Origin: Muribaculaceae bacterium
GTDB taxonomy: Bacteria; Bacteroidota; Bacteroidia; Bacteroidales; Muribaculaceae
Assembly: GCA_017405965.1 (NCBI GenBank)
Contig: JAFQZK010000015.1
Location: 280,354 to 344,353, forward strand
Length of the DNA: 64,000 nucleotides
Direction of reading: 5' to 3'
Every line of letters begins with the position of its first letter. Position 1 is the first letter of the stretch. The notes beneath the pieces were generated by a model. It saw only the letters and a program-made list of their open reading frames with translations, ran no database searches and was not told where the DNA came from. The position numbers were made by a program, and so were the translations under genes. Of the stretch, positions 16,738-24,317 are shown one piece after another.

Positions 16738-16766
16738 GAAAAAATGACTACCTTTGCAGCCGTTTA

Positions 16767-16820
16767 ATTGGGCTGATTGGGCTGATTGGTCAAATTTGAC
16801 TGATTTGTTCGATTGGGCCA
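16767..16820 (+). repeat. Six-copy 9-nt tandem repeat before tsaD
   Basis: Units ATTGGGCTG, ATTGGGCTG, ATTGGTCAA, ATTTGACTG, ATTTGTTCG and ATTGGGCCA follow in exact 9-nt register and end 20 nt before the tsaD ATG. The frame through the array is open and would add a WAD-like tripeptide repeat to TsaD if translated, but homologues do not have such an extension. Confidence 0.8.
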
Positions 16821-16840
16821 ATGGGAAAATGGAGAAAACA

Positions 16841-17857
16841 ATGAGTGTAACGATATTAGGAATAGAGTCGTCGTGCGACGACACGTCGGCAGCGGTCTTG
16901 CGTGACACGGTGCTGCTGAGCAACGTCATTGCCAGCCAGCGCGTGCACGAGGCCTACGGTGGCGTGGTGCCTGAGTTGGCGTCACGCGCCCATCAGCAGA
17001 ACATCGTCCCCGTCGTCAGCGAGGCCATCCGTCAGGCGGGCATCGACCGCAAGGACATCGATGCCATCGCTTTCACGCGTGGACCCGGCCTGCCGGGATC
17101 GCTCCATGTGGGCACTTCGTTTGCCAAGGGGCTTTCCCTTGCCCTGGATATCCCGCTGGTTGACGTGAACCATCTGCATGGCCATGTGCTCTCGCACTTC
17201 GTCAAGGAGACTCCCGATGCCGAGGTGCCCGATTTCCCTTACCTGTGCCTGCTCATCAGCGGCGGCAATTCCCAGATCATCAAGGTGAACTCGCCGCGCG
17301 ACATGGAGGTGCTGGGGCAGACCATCGACGATGCTGCCGGCGAGGCGTTCGACAAGTGTGCCAAGGTGATGGGCTTGCCCTATCCCGGTGGCCCCGTCAT
17401 CGACCGCTTGGCTGCCGAGGGCAATGCCAAGGCGTTCAAGTTCGCCAAGCCGCATATTGACGGCTACAATTACAGCTTCAGCGGCCTGAAGACCTCTTTC
17501 CTCTACACCCTGCGCGATGCGCTCAAGGAGAATCCTGCCTTCGTCGAGGAGAACAAGGCCGACCTGGCCGCCTCGTTGCAGCGCACGATTATTGAGATAC
17601 TGATGGACAAGTTCGGCAAGGCCATCAAGGACACGGGCATCAAGACCATCGCCATCGGCGGCGGTGTGTCGGCCAACAGCGGCATGCGTGCCGCGGTCGA
17701 GGATTATGCCCGCCGTCATCGCCTCAAGGCCTTCATCCCCAAGCGCGTTTTCACGACCGATAATGCCGCGATGATCGCCATTGCGGGCCACTACAAGTAT
17801 CTGGACAAGGATTTTTGCGACATCACGGCGCCGCCTTTCCAGCGCGTTGTCATTTGA
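16841..17857 (+). CDS. tsaD: tRNA N6-adenosine threonylcarbamoyltransferase TsaD
   Basis: 338 residues. TsaD transfers the threonylcarbamoyl group to A37 of ANN-reading tRNAs, working with TsaB and TsaE. The N-terminal ILGIESSCDDTS phosphate loop, the metal-binding HLHGH (about 110-114), the ISGGNSQ loop and the late TDNAAMIAIAG motif with its metal-binding Asp are all present. The start at 16841 (MSVTILG) is chosen because homologues begin there; an in-frame ATG at 16829 and a longer open frame to 16754 exist upstream. A TACCTTTG box at 16749-16756 could serve as the -7 element, without a clear -33. The uvrA-like gene follows after 10 nt, suggesting one operon. Confidence 0.96.
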   Translation: MSVTILGIESSCDDTSAAVLRDTVLLSNVIASQRVHEAYGGVVPELASRAHQQNIVPVVSEAIRQAGIDRKDIDAIAFTRGPGLPGSLHVGTSFAKGLSLALDIPLVDVNHLHGHVLSHFVKETPDAEVPDFPYLCLLISGGNSQIIKVNSPRDMEVLGQTIDDAAGEAFDKCAKVMGLPYPGGPVIDRLAAEGNAKAFKFAKPHIDGYNYSFSGLKTSFLYTLRDALKENPAFVEENKADLAASLQRTIIEILMDKFGKAIKDTGIKTIAIGGGVSANSGMRAAVEDYARRHRLKAFIPKRVFTTDNAAMIAIAGHYKYLDKDFCDITAPPFQRVVI

Positions 17858-17867
17858 TCAGGACGGC

Positions 17868-20132
17868 ATGAACAGCGACAAGATCATCATCAAGGGAGCC
17901 CGCGAGAACAACCTCAAGGACGTTTCTCTGGAGATTCCCAAGCATCAAATCACGGTTTTCACGGGCGTATCGGGCTCCGGCAAGAGTTCGCTCGTGCTCG
18001 ACACCATCGCCGCCAAGTCGCGCCGGGAGCTGAACGACACCTTCCCGTCGTTCGTGCAGCAGTACTTGCCCAAGTATGGCCGTCCCCACGTCGATGCCAT
18101 CGAGAACCTGCCCATCGCCATCGTCATCGACCAGAAGAAGCCCGCCCAAAACTCCCGCTCGACCGTGGCGACCTATACCGACATCGCCGCCCTGCTGCGA
18201 CTGCTGTTCTCGCGCGTGGGCCAGCCCTTTGTGGGCTATGCCGAGTCGTTCAGCTTCAACCACCCCGAGGGCAGCTGTCCGCGTTGCTCGGGTCTGGGCG
18301 AAATCCGCGAGCTCGACATCCATAAGCTGGTCGATTTTGACAAGAGCCTCAACGACGAGGACACCATCCACTATATCGCCTTCGGCAAGGGTGGCTGGCG
18401 CTGGATACGCTACGCCCACAGCGGCCTGTTCGACCTGGACAAGAAAATCAAGGACTACAGCCCCGAGGAACTCGACTTGTTCCTCAACAGCCCTCAAATC
18501 CGCCTCAAGAATCCCCCTGCCAACTGGCCGAAATCGGCCAAATACGAGGGCATCATCCCGCGCATGTACCGCAGCATCATCAACAGCGAGGAGGGCTTGC
18601 TGCACGCCGCCGTCCTCAACCCGATGCTCAACATGGGCACCTGTCCCGACTGCCACGGCACGCGCCTGAGCCCCCGAGTGCTCTCGTGCAAGATCGACGG
18701 CATCAACATCGCCGATGCCTGCGCCATGTCCATCACGCGCCTCAACGAGTGGGTCAAGGCCCTCACGGCACCGCTGGCGGTGGACCTCAAGCAGGCCATC
18801 AGCGCCCGCCTCACGGCGCTTGAGGAAATCGGCTTGGGCTACCTGAGCCTGGAGCGCGCCGTGGGTACGCTCTCGGGCGGCGAGGCCCAGCGTTGCAAAA
18901 TCGCCAAGTACATCAATTCGTCGCTGGCCGACGTGCTCTACATCCTTGACGAGCCCAGCACAGGCCTCCATGACCACGATATCGAGAAGATGAAGCACTC
19001 GGTGCGTCGCCTGCGTGACGCGGGCAACACCGTGCTGCTTGTCGAGCACCACCGCGAGATGATCGGCATCGCCGACCACATCGTGGACCTGGGCCCCGGG
19101 CCTGGCAGCGAGGGCGGCCGCATCATCTTCGAGGGCAACTACCAACAGCTGCTGCACAGCGGCACCAGCACGGGCCAGATGCTGAGTCAGCACGGCGATT
19201 TCAAGGCCGAGCCGCGTCCCGTGGGCGAGACCTTCCCGTTGCGCCATGCCGTGCTGCACAACCTCAAGGACATCTCCATCGACCTGCCGATGGGCGCTTT
19301 TGTCGCCATCGCCGGTGTGGCTGGATCGGGCAAGAGTTCGCTGATGGAGTGCTTCCGCCGCGAGCACGGCGACGTGGTCTATATCAGCCAAAAGAACATC
19401 GGCGTGAGTCTGCGCTCCACGCCCGCGACCTATATGGACGTTGCTCCCGACATCCGCAAGCGCTTTGCCCGGGCCCACAAAATCAAGGAGCAGTATTTCA
19501 CCTTTAACGGCAAGGGTGGCTGCCCCGTATGCGGCGGCAAGGGCGTAGTCATCGCCGAGATGGCCTTCATGGACAACATCGAGACCACCTGCGAGGCCTG
19601 TCACGGCCTGCGCTACAGCCGCGAAGCCCTGCAATATACCGTCGATGGCAAGAACATCGCCGAGGTGATGGACCTGTCGGTGCGTCGCGCCAGCGAGTTC
19701 TTCAAGGGCACCGTCATTGAGGAGAAACTCAAGCCCATGATGGACGTCGGTCTGCATTACCTCCACCTCAACCAGGCCCTGAGCACCCTGTCGGGCGGCG
19801 AGCTGCAGCGCCTCAAGATGGCCTCCTGCCTCAAGCAATACACCATGCCCCTTGATCAGGGCGGACAGCGCGGCGTGTTTGTCATCGACGAACCCACCGA
19901 CGGTCTCCACCTCAAGGACGTGCGCCACCTCATCGACCTGTTCGAGCAGATGGTCGAGATGGGCAACACCGTCTATGTTATCGAGCACAACACCGACGTC
20001 ATCAAGGCCGCCGACTATGTCATCGAACTAGGCCCCGGCGCCGGCGACCTGGGCGGCACCATCGTCTTCCAGGGCACCCCCCGCACCATGCTCGACAGCC
20101 CCCAGTCCGTCACTGCCCCCTACCTAAAATAA
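17868..20132 (+). CDS. Short UvrA-like ABC ATPase (UvrA paralogue)
   Basis: 754 residues, about 190 shorter than housekeeping UvrA. It has two ABC ATPase modules: Walker A GVSGSGKSS (about 32-40) with signature LSGGEAQRCK and DEPSTGLH, and a second Walker A AGVAGSGKSS with LSGGELQRLK and DEPTDGLH. Zinc-knuckle cysteines are present in both halves (CPRCSGLGE; CPDCHGTRL; CPVCGGKG with CEACHGLR). The short length fits class II UvrA/DrrC-type proteins, which lack part of the insertion that contacts UvrB; some give tolerance to DNA-binding drugs. Whether it works with UvrBC is not shown. The chosen ATG at 17868 gives the standard IIIKGARENNLK start. It follows tsaD by 10 nt. Confidence 0.85.
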   Translation: MNSDKIIIKGARENNLKDVSLEIPKHQITVFTGVSGSGKSSLVLDTIAAKSRRELNDTFPSFVQQYLPKYGRPHVDAIENLPIAIVIDQKKPAQNSRSTVATYTDIAALLRLLFSRVGQPFVGYAESFSFNHPEGSCPRCSGLGEIRELDIHKLVDFDKSLNDEDTIHYIAFGKGGWRWIRYAHSGLFDLDKKIKDYSPEELDLFLNSPQIRLKNPPANWPKSAKYEGIIPRMYRSIINSEEGLLHAAVLNPMLNMGTCPDCHGTRLSPRVLSCKIDGINIADACAMSITRLNEWVKALTAPLAVDLKQAISARLTALEEIGLGYLSLERAVGTLSGGEAQRCKIAKYINSSLADVLYILDEPSTGLHDHDIEKMKHSVRRLRDAGNTVLLVEHHREMIGIADHIVDLGPGPGSEGGRIIFEGNYQQLLHSGTSTGQMLSQHGDFKAEPRPVGETFPLRHAVLHNLKDISIDLPMGAFVAIAGVAGSGKSSLMECFRREHGDVVYISQKNIGVSLRSTPATYMDVAPDIRKRFARAHKIKEQYFTFNGKGGCPVCGGKGVVIAEMAFMDNIETTCEACHGLRYSREALQYTVDGKNIAEVMDLSVRRASEFFKGTVIEEKLKPMMDVGLHYLHLNQALSTLSGGELQRLKMASCLKQYTMPLDQGGQRGVFVIDEPTDGLHLKDVRHLIDLFEQMVEMGNTVYVIEHNTDVIKAADYVIELGPGAGDLGGTIVFQGTPRTMLDSPQSVTAPYLK

Positions 20133-20399
20133 AAACTACGAACCTTTAGCTCGGCGAAGCCAATTTCGCGAATTAAACGAATTCCTGGAGCCTCCACCCC
20201 CATCCACGACAACCCATCAAAAAGAGAAAACAATAAATACAATAAACACAAGGGCTGCACTATCTTAAAAAACAACAGATTATTCTGATTGTTCTGATGA
20301 CCGCCGCATCAGTCCTCGGCACCCGCCCCTATATAAAAGAAAACAAGAAATACAATAAATACTATTTGAAAACGCTACCTAAAAGCGTATCCCTAAATT

Positions 20400-21263
20400 C
20401 TACACACTGTACTTAAGATGGTCATATAATTTGAGAGGCAATATTTCTCCATTATTAAACTCAAATTGGAACTTATTGCGATTGAAACGAGGGTTGTTTT
20501 TGTGTATAATGCGATGGTAGTTAGGACTAATAATGATAATATTTGTGGAATCATTATTTTGTGAGTCAGTGAAGTATTCAATATGATGGGCTTCTACAAC
20601 ACTATCTCCATATTCACTTCCAATCTTTTCGCCAGAGATTTCGTCTCTATAATCGTAATACTTTTTGAGCATACGGATAATGCTACGGTCCATCTTGCGG
20701 TATTTGACAAGTAATTGTTTTTCAACGATTGATGCAGTTTTGTCAGCCAAGAAAAACTTGTCATCGTCACTTACCTCATATATCTCTTCGGGGATTTTAC
20801 TTAGCGTTGGAGCCAATTGTACATAGTCCTGATTACTGCAACACTCAAAATATATCATATTCAATGAATCTACTAGATACAATCGGATGTATTCATGTAA
20901 TTCCTCTGGTAATTGAATTCTCCCTCTCCTGCCCAATACCACTCGTTGATTGTATAGGTAATCGTAGGTCTTATAAAACACTGTTCTCAATTTCACAGCA
21001 AGAGGTGATTTTTTACTGTATCTAATCTGAATCACATCATTGTGTCCTGGCCAATTTGCCTGTTCAAAATTCTGATTTCTAAGTGTGGCATCATATTGTT
21101 GGCCATCGATATACACCTTTATATCCATTGAGTGCCCATGAGTAAGGATGTTTTCATTCCAACTTTTCAATAAGGCACATACTGAAACTGGAATAGTCAT
21201 GCCTTCATTCAGCAAAGACCAATCTACCCTTTTACGCATGATGAAATTACGCTCTGAATCCAT
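20400..21263 (-). CDS. HNH endonuclease-like protein, second gene of a two-gene nuclease island
   Basis: 287 residues from the ATG at 21263; a TTG start at 21302 would overlap the upstream gene. The C-terminal HNH-type motif is EAHHIEYF (H226/H227), an Asn in DSTNIIIISPNYHRIIHKNN (about N241) and H250/H254. The cysteine knuckles seen in many HNH proteins are absent (SGEKIG replaces CxxC). The N-terminal part (VYIDGQQYDATLRNQNF, then NDVIQIRYSKK) looks like a compact DNA-binding domain but was not identified. The base composition is visibly AT-rich compared with the neighbours, and codons end often in A or T, which points to recent acquisition. It follows the winged-helix gene by 32 nt. A restriction-like role is inferred. 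Confidence 0.65.
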   Translation of the reverse strand: MDSERNFIMRKRVDWSLLNEGMTIPVSVCALLKSWNENILTHGHSMDIKVYIDGQQYDATLRNQNFEQANWPGHNDVIQIRYSKKSPLAVKLRTVFYKTYDYLYNQRVVLGRRGRIQLPEELHEYIRLYLVDSLNMIYFECCSNQDYVQLAPTLSKIPEEIYEVSDDDKFFLADKTASIVEKQLLVKYRKMDRSIIRMLKKYYDYRDEISGEKIGSEYGDSVVEAHHIEYFTDSQNNDSTNIIIISPNYHRIIHKNNPRFNRNKFQFEFNNGEILPLKLYDHLKYSV

Positions 21264-21295
21264 TTCTGTCTTTTTATTAATGGGTTGATTTCCAA

Positions 21296-22015
21296 TTACC
21301 AAAGGGATGTATTCACTATAGACAATCCTTCGTGCATTTTTACTACTTTATTGTAGTCTAAGAACTTCACGCGATTCTCTATTGAACTGAATATTGAGAC
21401 ATGCAACTTGTCCTCAAATTCTTTTTTCCTAATGATATTAGCCACTATATAAAAGCCTGCTTGAAAATCCTGTAACTCATAGAACTTGGATAATGAGTTT
21501 TTAATGTCTGTGGTGTGTTCAACCTCATAGAAAGCTGATGGCATCATTCGCTCATTAAACCAAATGACATCAACCGTACGAGCACGTTTCAATAGTTTGT
21601 CATATGTGAATTCAGGTATTTCAGTTGTATCAGTTAATTCACTTAATTTCTTATGGTCAAAGATGCGATTCTTGTCTTGGGCAGGAACATAAGTAGTTTT
21701 ATGATTGAATTTTCCTATTTCAACAAGTAATCCTTGATAATACCCATGAGTGAATTTTTCTTCACTTTCAGTATCACCAATCTTCAACTCTAATTGTTTA
21801 AGAACCTCTTCCCGACATTCTTCTAATGCCCAAAGTCCGGGTTGAATCCTGAAAATTTTATTGCTATTTTGAACAATTCTCCTTACAGAAGCCTCTGGCG
21901 TTTTTGTTTTCCATGTTGAAAAATCGACAGTTGCGTTTAACCGCCTAAATGTTGCGTAGCCACCAAGCTCACGCATTGTTTCAATCACTTGTTGTTCCTG
22001 TGTCATAGTGGTCAT
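21296..22015 (-). CDS. Winged-helix plus PD-(D/E)xK-like protein, first gene of the nuclease island
   Basis: 239 residues. Residues 5-65 form a winged-helix domain resembling the HARE-HTH of restriction enzymes (ETMRELGGYATFRRLN, then ASVRRIVQNSNKIFRIQPG, then LWAL). The C-terminal half carries a core of D149 (RTVDVIWF), E164 and E166 (AFYEVEHTTD), which fits a PD-(D/E)xK nuclease in which the Lys is replaced or displaced. It is AT-rich like the HNH gene. The start at 22015 leaves a very short leader after the promoter, so the ATG at 22006 is also possible. No methyltransferase gene lies next to the pair; this would fit a modification-dependent enzyme or a non-cleaving sensor, both inference. 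Confidence 0.6.
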   Translation of the reverse strand: MTTMTQEQQVIETMRELGGYATFRRLNATVDFSTWKTKTPEASVRRIVQNSNKIFRIQPGLWALEECREEVLKQLELKIGDTESEEKFTHGYYQGLLVEIGKFNHKTTYVPAQDKNRIFDHKKLSELTDTTEIPEFTYDKLLKRARTVDVIWFNERMMPSAFYEVEHTTDIKNSLSKFYELQDFQAGFYIVANIIRKKEFEDKLHVSIFSSIENRVKFLDYNKVVKMHEGLSIVNTSLW

Positions 22016-22027
22016 TTCTTTAGATCA

Positions 22028-22058
22028 CAAAGGTATTGATTATTTATTAAACAAGCAA
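22028..22058 (-). promoter_or_regulatory. Bacteroidota-type promoter of the nuclease island
   Basis: On the minus strand TTG (22056-22058), a 20-nt spacer and TACCTTTG (22028-22035). Transcription would start only a few bases before the first start codon. Confidence 0.7.
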
Positions 22059-22338
22059 TATCTGGAGTTGATATTGCGGTCGACGCATTGGTTGAGGTAT
22101 GATGGGGAGCGGGATTTGTATGGGGACTCGGTGAACATCAGTTTTGAGTGGTTCACGAGGGAGGAGTTTTTGTCGTTGTTTGGTCACGGGTGGTGGTGCC
22201 GTGAGCATTGACGTGGGGTGAGATGAGGTGGTGGTGGAGAGGTGGTGGCTTTTCGGTAAACGACCGAGGCGGAACAGACCCACGTGCATGTGGAAAAAAA
22301 AGAAAAAATGGAAAAATGGAAAAGGTGGAAGGAGGGGG
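22059..22338. other. Gap between the nuclease island and the four-helix-bundle gene
   Basis: G-rich on the plus strand. A plus-strand frame from about 22070 to 22211 reads like protein (WLRYDGERDLYGDS, SFEWFTREEFLSLFG) but has no believable start and runs out of the leftward promoter. It may be a remnant of a lost gene. The part near 22290-22330 is a run of AAAAATGG-like words. Confidence 0.3.
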
Positions 22339-23016
22339 TTAGAGTTGGCCGAGGGCGCGGAGTTTGTTTTTCAGGATAGTGTTTTCTTGCTTGAGGGCTT
22401 CGAGCTCGCGGGTAAGTTGCTCGATGGTTTCACGTTGATTGGTGCGGTAACCGAGCCGTGCGGCTGTCATGCGTTCGCGTATTCCTCCCTCGGTAATGAA
22501 CTCCTGCTCTTTTTTCTGCTGATAGGTGTTCATCATCTTGTCCACCATGCGGCAGAGTGTGATGGCTATGTTTGCTGTTTCCTCGGCAGTCCATTTCTCA
22601 AAGAAGGGTTCATAGTCCGCCAGGTTGTTGTGTTCCCTGCAATACTGCAACATCTGGTCATATCTAGGATGCCCTGCCGTCCATTTCGTCAGCCGATGGG
22701 CGGGCAGGAAGTCCTCGTAGTCTTCCAGGAGTTCTTGAATGCTGCCGCGCGCGGTGTTGAGGAGTTTCAGCTCCATCTCCATCGAAGTCACCCCGTCGGC
22801 CGAGCCCTCAACAATATTCTGTTTGCCAGAACGGGCAGCCTGCACCATCTGATCTACCGTGCGGTCGCCAAAGGCAGGGAGGAAGCGCCGGGTGAAGACA
22901 TAGGTCATCTGGTAGAGCACGACCGTCTTCTGGTAGAACCAAAGGTTTTTCCAGTTGGTCTGCCGGCGGAGGACGGTTTCTAGTTGCCGGGCGGGGATGG
23001 CATCGTTGTTGTCCAT
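22339..23016 (-). CDS. Four-helix-bundle protein with suffix domain
   Basis: 225 residues. Residues 25-110 (LYQMTYVFTRRFLP, RTVDQMVQAARSGKQNIVEG, LLNTARGSIQELLEDYEDFL) match the four-helix-bundle family first described from 23S rRNA intervening sequences. A following domain (YEPFFEKWTAEETANIAITL and a long charged coil REAL-like ELEALKQENTILKNKL) fits the four-helix-bundle suffix family. The function of these proteins is not known. It is transcribed leftwards, with the 9-nt repeat array at 23036-23125 lying in its probable leader. The final 35 residues are a likely coiled coil. Confidence 0.75.
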   Translation of the reverse strand: MDNNDAIPARQLETVLRRQTNWKNLWFYQKTVVLYQMTYVFTRRFLPAFGDRTVDQMVQAARSGKQNIVEGSADGVTSMEMELKLLNTARGSIQELLEDYEDFLPAHRLTKWTAGHPRYDQMLQYCREHNNLADYEPFFEKWTAEETANIAITLCRMVDKMMNTYQQKKEQEFITEGGIRERMTAARLGYRTNQRETIEQLTRELEALKQENTILKNKLRALGQL

Positions 23017-23035
23017 TGTCTTTTCTACATTTTAA

Positions 23036-23125
23036 CTAGATGTTCTAGAGGCTCTAGATATTCTAGATAATATAGATGTTCTAGAACTTCTAGAGTTTCT
23101 AGATCTTGTTGAGACTCTAGTAATC
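23036..23125 (-). repeat. Ten-copy 9-nt tandem repeat (CTAGANNTT) in a leader
   Basis: On the plus strand the units are CTAGATGTT, CTAGAGGCT, CTAGATATT, CTAGATAAT, ATAGATGTT, CTAGAACTT, CTAGAGTTT, CTAGATCTT, GTTGAGACT, CTAGTAATC, in exact 9-nt register. Five bases of each unit are nearly constant and form half of a TCTAGA palindrome with the neighbouring bases. The array lies between the promoter at 23137 and the four-helix-bundle start at 23016, so it would be transcribed as leader RNA. Confidence 0.9.
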
Positions 23126-23136
23126 CTTTAAGATTG

Positions 23137-23167
23137 CAAATTTAGGGAAAAATGTGGGTTCTACAAA
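23137..23167 (-). promoter_or_regulatory. Bacteroidota-type promoter for the four-helix-bundle gene
   Basis: On the minus strand TTTG (23164-23167), a 19-nt spacer and TAAATTTG (23137-23144). Divergent from the ruvB -7 box TATCTTTG at 23178-23185. Confidence 0.65.
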
Positions 23168-23194
23168 ATCTTTATAGTATCTTTGCCATTTGGT

Positions 23195-24214
23195 ATGGAA
23201 GAGGAATTTGACATCAGACGGGAGTCGTTGAAAACCGATCAGGATTTTGAGCGGGCGTTGCGTCCGGTGAGGTTTGAGGACTTTGCCGGGCAGGACAAGA
23301 TCATCGAGAACTTGCGCGTGTTTGTGGCTGCGGCCAAGCTGCGCGGCGAGTCGCTGGACCATGTGCTGTTCCACGGCCCTCCGGGCTTGGGCAAGACGAC
23401 GTTGAGTAACATCATCGCCAACGAGCTGGGCGTGGGCTTCAAGGTGACGTCGGGTCCGGTGCTTGACAAGCCGGGTGACCTGGCTGGTCTGCTGACGTCG
23501 CTCGATGAGAACGACGTGCTGTTCATCGACGAGATACACCGCCTGAGTCCCATCGTGGAGGAGTACCTCTACAGCGCGATGGAGGACTACCGCATCGACA
23601 TCATGATCGACAAGGGGCCCGGTGCGCGGTCGGTGCAGCTGACGCTCGCTCCGTTCACCCTCATCGGCGCGACCACGCGCAGCGGTCTGCTGACGTCGCC
23701 GCTGCGGGCTCGCTTCGGCATCAACTGCCACCTGGAGTACTACGACCACAAGGTGCTGGAGGGTATCATCCGCCGCTCGGCTCGCCTGTTGAACGTCCCC
23801 ATCGATGACAAGGCGGCCATCGAGATTGCCCTGCGCAGCCGCGGCACGCCCCGTATCGCCAACTCGCTGCTGCGCCGCGTGCGCGACTTTGCCCAGGTGA
23901 AGGGCAGCGGCCGCATCGACCTGGAGATTGCCCGCTATGCCCTGGAGGCGCTGAACATCGACAAATACGGCCTGGACGAAATCGACAACAAGATTCTGCT
24001 GACCATCATCGACAAGTTCGGCGGCGGCCCGGTGGGCCTGAATACCATCGCCACGGCGATGAACGAGGACGCCGGCACCATCGAGGAGGTCTATGAGCCC
24101 TACCTCATCAAGGAAGGCTTTATCAACCGCACTCCCCGCGGCCGCGAGGCTACCATGCTGGCCTACAACCACCTGAAACGCCAACGTCCCGGCGACGTGG
24201 GAAGCATTTTTTAG
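23195..24214 (+). CDS. ruvB: Holliday junction branch-migration helicase RuvB
   Basis: 339 residues from the ATG at 23195 ([12 protein letters not shown]), the usual start; the frame opens slightly earlier at a TTG inside the -7 box. RuvB is the hexameric AAA+ motor that works with RuvA and RuvC on recombination intermediates. Walker A is [11 protein letters not shown], Walker B/DEIH is [11 protein letters not shown], and sensor 1 is [18 protein letters not shown]. The C-terminal winged helix ends in [13 protein letters not shown]. The -7 box TATCTTTG is at 23178-23185 with a weak -33. The flippase gene follows after a 103-nt repeat gap. Confidence 0.97.
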
Positions 24215-24215
24215 T

Positions 24216-24317
24216 GAACAGTTAACAGTGAACAATTAACAGTTGGCATCCGCCTACCTGAGATTGGCTATTCACTATTAACTATTAACCATTAACTGTT
24301 AACTATTAACTGAAGTA
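24216..24317 (+). repeat. 7-nt period repeats between ruvB and the flippase gene
   Basis: First half: AACAGTT, AACAGTG, AACAATT, AACAGTT. Then GGCATCCGCC. Second half: CTATTCA, CTATTAA, CTATTAA, CCATTAA, CTGTTAA, CTATTAA. The two halves are partly complementary (AACAGTTAA against TTAACTGTT), so the gap could also fold. The array ends just before the flippase ATG at 24318. Confidence 0.8.

Follow-up and report, generated by a model that had tools for sequence, protein, structure and literature searches.

The locus lies in a 64-kb stretch of Muribaculaceae DNA (the window) and consists of two minus-strand genes (Table 1): gene A, whose product is a predicted endonuclease with a winged helix, and gene B, which encodes an HNH protein. 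Both reading frames of an earlier sequence-only reading of the window are real. They fill the segment between a UvrA-like gene and a four-helix-bundle gene that carries a suffix domain; the names UvrA-like and ruvB are putative assignments from the sequences. The four-helix gene is present at the same site in congeners and is outside the A-B unit, from which a low-complexity, purine-rich run (22290-22340) separates it. The gene B frame can be opened from a TTG at 21302 (20400-21302, 300 aa); since both homologues available for comparison begin at M14 of the window protein, the ATG at 21263 is the likely start, leaving a gap of 32 bp to gene A and no overlap.

The A-B stretch is foreign-looking. 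GC content is 0.34-0.37 over 20250-21999 and 0.58-0.66 in the left flank (16750-20249), whereas on the right it is at first 0.47-0.55 (22250-23499) and then 0.60-0.64 (23250-24249); the AT-richness described earlier is thereby confirmed, with a contrast that is sharper on the left than on the right. A single match to the Bacteroidetes-type promoter consensus precedes gene A (composition-shuffled versions of the 2.2-kb segment would give 0.125), and the two genes are probably on one transcript. A sigma-70 scan stayed at background (10 found, shuffle mean 7.0), so the strength ascribed earlier to the promoter is not borne out. The pair has no methylase beside it, as had been proposed: queries drawn from three groups of methylases, and from two groups of small proteins associated with A, gave no match in the window (lowest E 0.083). 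The window holds 145 copies of GATC (observed/expected 0.41), and its rarest four-base palindromes relative to an order-2 expectation are CTAG (0.31) and GATC (0.41).

Table 1. Features of the A-B locus and its surroundings, in window positions
Feature	Position	Strand	Remark
UvrA-like gene	17781-20132		left edge of A-B segment
Segment from UvrA-like gene to four-helix gene	20133..22338	.	AT-rich core 20250-21999
Gene B, HNH protein	20400..21263	-	probable start ATG 21263
HNH stretch of B, H239-H267 (300-aa numbering)	20502..20588	-
Gene A, 239 aa, HARE/winged-helix and PD-(D/E)xK-type endonuclease (predicted)	21296..22015	-
Nuclease domain of A (predicted), residues 84-238	21302..21766	-
Catalytic-core residues of A	D149 21569-21571; E164 21524-21526; E166 21518-21520	-
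Winged-helix (HARE-HTH) putative reader domain of A, residues 1-66	21818..22015	-
Putative promoter ATTG-N20-TACCTTTG	22028-22059	-	just ahead of gene A
Four-helix-bundle gene with suffix domain	22339..23016	-	TIGR04258, 4.9e-17
ruvB	23183-24214		right of A-B, beyond four-helix gene

Relatives of genes A and B

Gene A belongs to a widespread, uncharacterised family of predicted nucleases, whose members come mostly from metagenome-assembled genomes with short contigs. The HARE-type winged helix first read from the bare sequence is recovered by PF05066 in 38 of 68 members scanned singly (best E 4.7e-5), the window copy not being among the matches. The proposed D149, E164 and E166 core is invariant in all 68 aligned proteins (the window copy and 67 relatives, 13 of the 80 relatives being left out of alignment A2), and the D..E.E motif is present in 80 of 80 relatives; loss of the nuclease residues, which would have told against the earlier reading, was not seen. 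Resemblance to characterised enzymes is slight. A matches one "type II restriction enzyme" profile of PADLOC weakly (5.5e-6), PF04556 (the R.DpnII family) is absent from its Pfam matches, and the DpnI family does not appear for the 68 members among the 25 of 37 families listed. Foldseek against the PDB and BFVD returned no match at E<=0.001, unrelated winged helices match the reader domain as well as DpnI does, and the A profile gave only three hits among PDB sequences, to a ribosomal protein, at E 0.31 or worse. Neither A nor B was matched in phage records; viral contigs contained one A locus and no B.

Distant proteins of 419-435 aa annotated as type II restriction endonucleases, on plasmids (H3, H11, H12, H14, H15 and H16), match the C-terminal part of A at 24-29% identity. 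Their gene tables, which have gaps, list no DNA methylase within 4 kb in any of the six, although a gene for an unspecific methyltransferase domain is present in one; five lie near metal-resistance or metal-sensing genes.

Purifying selection acts on gene A even at loci whose neighbouring methylases are broken or absent. Among 23 pairs of A genes tried for dN/dS, 10 were informative, two had a dN of 0, one was near saturation and 10 were saturated. The informative pairs give 0.024-0.115, whether methylases are broken, absent or intact: loci with methylase relics give 0.093 (L014/L015) and 0.081 (L010/L012), and loci without a methylase trace give 0.041 (L039/L040) and 0.097 (L067/L070).

Gene B is far rarer. 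A sample of 297 genomes of the family yielded two further full-length relatives, in G256 (75%) and G027 (44%), besides two weak partial matches, and another search added one short match (G335). H240, N254 and H263 are kept in all three full-length proteins, in agreement with the earlier assignment of B as an HNH protein; Pfam HNH_2 reaches 0.045 in one homologue only. Within a phylum sample of 395 genomes, 16 others encode HNH proteins that are similar to its C-terminal HNH half, and a single-sequence structural model is unusable (mean pLDDT 35.5). In G017 (L143:1751-6340) only the N-terminal half of B is matched, near a contig end and adjoining a type IIG-like restriction-methylase gene.

Methylases and DpnII-type cassettes around gene A

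Neighbour clustering and tblastn over 80 A loci distinguished three kinds of methylase near gene A: a DpnA-type N6-adenine methylase (PF01555, often preceded by a DpnD/PcfM domain) with 27 traces, a D12/Dam methylase (PF02086, a family that includes enzymes of other sites) with 18, and a third kind, also PF01555, with eight. No trace of these three families was found at 37 of the 80 loci, some of which lie close to contig ends. An intact GATC-type methylase adjoins A at 17 loci (15 DpnA-type, two Dam), and about 25 of the 80 have a methylase gene that is apparently whole or interrupted by nothing but the end of the contig. Cultured hosts of A include Hoylesella timonensis, with broken methylases, and Prevotella lacticifex, with an intact one. 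The nearest solved structure for the Dam of L023 is DpnM of DpnII (2dpm, 1.3e-56), and for the DpnA-type protein of L005 it is CcrM (2.3e-55), followed by a DpnA (5.1e-33).

The Dam traces differ by position. Fifteen of the 18 lie upstream on the same strand as A, and all are N-terminal fragments: 14 stop before residue 128 and that of L052 at about residue 256 of 318. Four of these fragments span only 25-33 residues, and the one at L056 lies 774 bp away. Downstream are two intact Dam genes (L023 and L026) and a distant two-domain protein (L051). The DpnA-type genes are more varied; 25 lie downstream of A and two upstream, and 15 are complete and 12 broken or partial. Nine of these 12 lack the N-terminus: at L010, L012 and L013 the loss is limited to the start codon and about 10-20 residues, at L014 and L015 somewhat more is missing, at the start of the catalytic part, and at L019, L025, L028 and L075 the N-terminus is mostly or largely gone. 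At L017 an internal stop is followed by the contig end, at L047 only the DpnD part remains, and at L071 the gene is cut where A starts. The DPPY motif is hit by D37Y in L013 and P38R in L015. That the complete genes beside A are dead methylases is unsupported in general, six of the 15 showing no change at any of the 105 positions at which 21 cassette DpnAs agree; the other nine deviate at 1 to 20 positions, among them L016 (D63G), whose A protein is identical to that of L017.

The third kind of methylase, whose N-terminus looks HARE-like by eye, is intact unless cut by a contig end (L009:299-1231, L058:178-1191, L011, L029, L038, L043, L045 and L050). Its activity is doubtful, since motif IV reads DHPW and not DPPY in the two full sequences, L009 and L058. 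A small unannotated protein adjoining A, termed c1 (about 85-150 aa in most), leaves traces at 20 of the 80 loci, including L010, L012-L015, L019, L025 and L028. It follows A in 19 of these 20, and the methylase is broken or missing in 18. Homology between c1 and DpnD received no support (hhalign probability 0.6%, E 0.088), and the copy of L015 has no Pfam or NCBIfam match. At L031 and L032 gene A stands between genes that look, from their sequences, like hsdS and hsdR of type I systems; at L033 only the presumed hsdR side is seen.

Some methylases beside A also appear to be selected. Three pairs of intact ones give dN/dS values of 0.056-0.111, and the remnants of L010, L012 and L013 give 0.047-0.083; because these remnants still look selected, their damage may be recent or the genes may still work. 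In L012 and L013 the A and c1 genes are 98-100% identical at the DNA level and the abutting methylase remnant is 88-91% identical, a drop that marks an exchange of the A-c1 module by recombination; L016 and L017 have a similar breakpoint, inside the methylase. A tree of A (without L020, L029, L038, L047, L048, L060, L064 and L076, for length or truncation) does not split into two classes by methylase state, which is scattered over it with 12 changes (intact of any of the three kinds against the rest).

In 20 genomes where A has no intact methylase next to it, DpnA-type queries found no match better than E 2.3e-18, short stretches of these weak matches reaching 51% identity. The D12/Dam class (PF02086) is absent from 13 of 24 such genomes. 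An intact DpnM-like Dam (>200 bits) occurs in three of 50 A genomes: those of L023 and L026, where it adjoins A, and G777, the metagenome-assembled genome of L010, where Dam and R.DpnII share another contig; the Dam of L052 is truncated. Of the weaker D12 matches in these genomes, the ones within the 20 stretches retrieved score no better than 9e-29 against a cassette Dam or do not match it. A complete DpnA-type gene is nevertheless found at 15 of 80 A loci, though 47 of the 50 genomes lack such a Dam. The genome of the window itself (96% complete) has no close relative of the DpnA-type or Dam enzymes and no PF04556 match. It has two N6/N4 methylases, which from our reading of the frames we take to lie near ffh in one case and to be fused to an HTH in the other, two 5mC methylases and one phage-like D12 protein.

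Complete DpnII-type cassettes are found among congeners. In a genus-wide search for R.DpnII only, PF04556 was present in 21 of 101 genomes, that of the window not being one of them, and all 21 have the order Dam (265-357 aa), R.DpnII, DpnA, with a small DpnD gene ahead in 10. In G264 (L191:5538-8687) a complete DpnD-Dam-R.DpnII-DpnA cassette lies in the interval between the UvrA-like gene and ruvB, on the same strand as A-B, and G800 (L187:5896-9039) has one beside ruvB with a different gene set on the far side. The interval is visible in 11 of 20 congener stretches fetched. Apart from G264, five measure about 120-460 bp, three are just large enough for the four-helix gene, and two contain the four-helix gene with either a SusD-like frame or one that we presume to be transposase-like. 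When the places of R.DpnII and ruvB are both known, the two are in most genomes apart and on different contigs, so the ruvB site is one of several for R.DpnII. At many A loci the remains are those of a DpnII-type Dam-R-DpnA cassette with A in the endonuclease slot. This position could equally well stem from one ancient replacement, with later transfer and decay, or from many replacements.

The role of gene A

From predicted folds, invariant residues, purifying selection, gene neighbourhoods and relics we infer that gene A is probably a stand-alone, modification-dependent endonuclease, type IV or type IIM in style; this part of the sequence-only reading remains the best one. The N-terminal HARE/winged helix would read a modified base in duplex DNA and the C-terminal D-E-E domain, of PD-(D/E)xK type, would cut at or near it, probably as a dimer. 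A host without the mark would be safe and would need no methylase. The gene has probably moved as the endonuclease member of Dam-R-DpnA cassettes of the DpnII type, with methylases that are broken or missing in many hosts, and B would be a separate HNH endonuclease that entered the same insertion site and probably shares the transcript.

The architecture itself is already known. Fusions of HARE-HTH to a nuclease (REase), attributed to Aravind and Iyer 2012, are described beside Dnd and BREX systems (PMC10853773, PMC12839542). The HARE or winged helix has been proposed as a reader of modified bases (PMC10853773, PMC11037411), although HARE-HTH may rather sense cytosine modification (PMC11037411). 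A shares both parts with these fusions, an N-terminal HARE-HTH (recovered in 38 of 68 members) and a PD-(D/E)XK-type domain whose acidic residues are conserved; the fusions described there lie beside Dnd or BREX, whereas A is found alone or in the R slot of DpnII-type cassettes. Winged-helix nucleases that require m6A are also in print: FcyTI, Psp4BI and HhiV4I, among others, resemble A in being mostly stand-alone, with adjacent m6A methylases frame-shifted in the cases cited, and their PD-(D/E)XK members differ in carrying the winged helix at the C-terminus, as DpnI does (PMC11037411). In that set 87% have no methylase within three genes on each side and 13% do, against about 25 of 80 A loci with a methylase at hand, which makes the A family the less clean case. 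DpnI (structure in PMC4117772) and drg likewise combine a PD-(D/E)XK nuclease with a winged helix and occupy or replace a dam/DpnII locus, that of drg having a reported low GC like the A segment; in DpnI, however, the nuclease comes first and the winged helix last, the reverse of A. A shares with DpnII-type cassettes both a place between Dam remains and a DpnA-type gene at many loci and, in one congener, a chromosomal site; unlike the restriction enzyme of these systems it is not PF04556, its upstream Dam is destroyed and methylases are often absent. The earlier suggestion that the system is undescribed therefore falls for the domain combination, but the A family, its cassette setting and the exchange were not found in the accessible parts of the literature searched, which is not proof of absence.

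A plain restriction enzyme cannot stay functional while its methylase dies unless the host is otherwise protected. In favour of modification dependence stand the Dam and DpnA relics, the absence of D12/Dam-class matches from 13 of 24 genomes, and of DpnA-type matches better than E 2.3e-18 from 20, in which A has no intact methylase beside it, the active-site losses in methylases, selection on A where no methylase is left, the HARE/winged-helix class, the DpnII cassette at the same site in G264, the 37 loci without a methylase trace and the A-c1 exchange of L012 and L013. Against it stand the 15 complete DpnA-type genes, the intact Dam of L023 and L026, the eight third-kind loci, the Dam and R.DpnII of G777, the still-selected remnants of L010, L012 and L013 and the same A protein in L016 and L017, points that fit either an ordinary restriction-modification pair or a mark other than Gm6ATC, as well as the tied DpnI match and the Foldseek null.

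The nature of the mark can be named only tentatively: m6A in GATC is one possibility, and another mark (modified cytosine or a phage hypermodification) is a second of similar weight. A mark other than plain Gm6ATC fits all A loci, and a Gm6ATC enzyme fits most. As a sub-case of the modification-dependent reading, A could possibly be a dam-replacing analogue of DpnI for Gm6ATC, with reader first and nuclease last. The fragmentary state of all 15 upstream Dam traces, the intact DpnM-like Dam in only three of 50 A genomes (a fourth, L052, being truncated), the congener cassette at the same chromosomal site, the DpnI-like winged helix and the precedents of drg and the DpnI/DpnII cassettes of pneumococci (PMC516771, PMC4269198, PMC2751782; for the pneumococcal cassettes and Neisseria drg also PMC12707154) all point this way. 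The specificity is disfavoured by the intact GATC-type methylases beside A at 17 of 80 loci (complete DpnA-type at 15, Dam at two), which partly contradict the Gm6ATC dependence of DpnI and drg, as well as by the pair in G777 and the missing DpnI family among those listed. Its fullest form, which we consider rather doubtful, is that A founds an independent DpnI-like, dam-replacing family whose spread through several phyla proceeds by recombination into cassettes of the DpnII type. It would take the endonuclease slot, remove the facing methylase ends and turn a host that marks GATC into a destroyer of marked GATC, and, as in pneumococci, a single site would be occupied by complementary cassettes within Prevotella-like populations.

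It is unlikely that A is instead a type II endonuclease of the ordinary sort, which would cut a GATC-like site when unmethylated and have the neighbouring DpnA-type or Dam enzyme as its cognate, with protection by a methylase elsewhere in other hosts. The intact methylases at 17 loci and the eight with the third kind, the purifying selection on several adjacent methylase pairs, the R-slot position and the PADLOC match agree with such an enzyme. They are countered by the selection on A where methylases are relics or absent, by the reduction of the upstream Dam to a fragment in 15 of 15 cases, and by the genome of the window, which lacks a close DpnA or Dam relative and yet retains GATC (145 in 64 kb, 0.41). 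Strong type II matches of both proteins together with a distant cognate methylase, the result that would have refuted the earlier reading, were not obtained in full: A has just the one weak match, and cognate-looking methylases adjoin many A relatives, but many are broken or absent.

That A and B are the two components of a single defence system, an option raised by the sequence-only reading, is very improbable and was rejected on the neighbourhoods of their relatives: the same strand, the 32-bp gap, the single promoter candidate and the common low GC speak for it, but the two occur together at one of 81 A loci, window included, B adjoins none of the other 80 (ORFs >=60 aa, E<=1e-3; some loci end close to A), and neither other full-length B has an A nearby, G256 carrying B beside the same ruvB with an Xre-type HTH gene ahead and a contig end 234 bp past B, and G027 carrying B alone on an 11.7-kb contig. 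On the preferred reading B is a separate, predicted HNH endonuclease and not a required partner of A.

For the modification-dependent reading of A, what matters is that in many hosts the nuclease active site persists beside broken methylases or none at all, contrary to expectation for an ordinary restriction enzyme, and the 17 loci with intact GATC-type methylases supply the contrast that makes the question directly testable. If A reads a mark, it would add a new enzyme to the toolbox and hinder gene flow among bacteria of the gut and rumen; if that mark is Gm6ATC, the two-cassette exchange of pneumococci would have evolved again with other parts.
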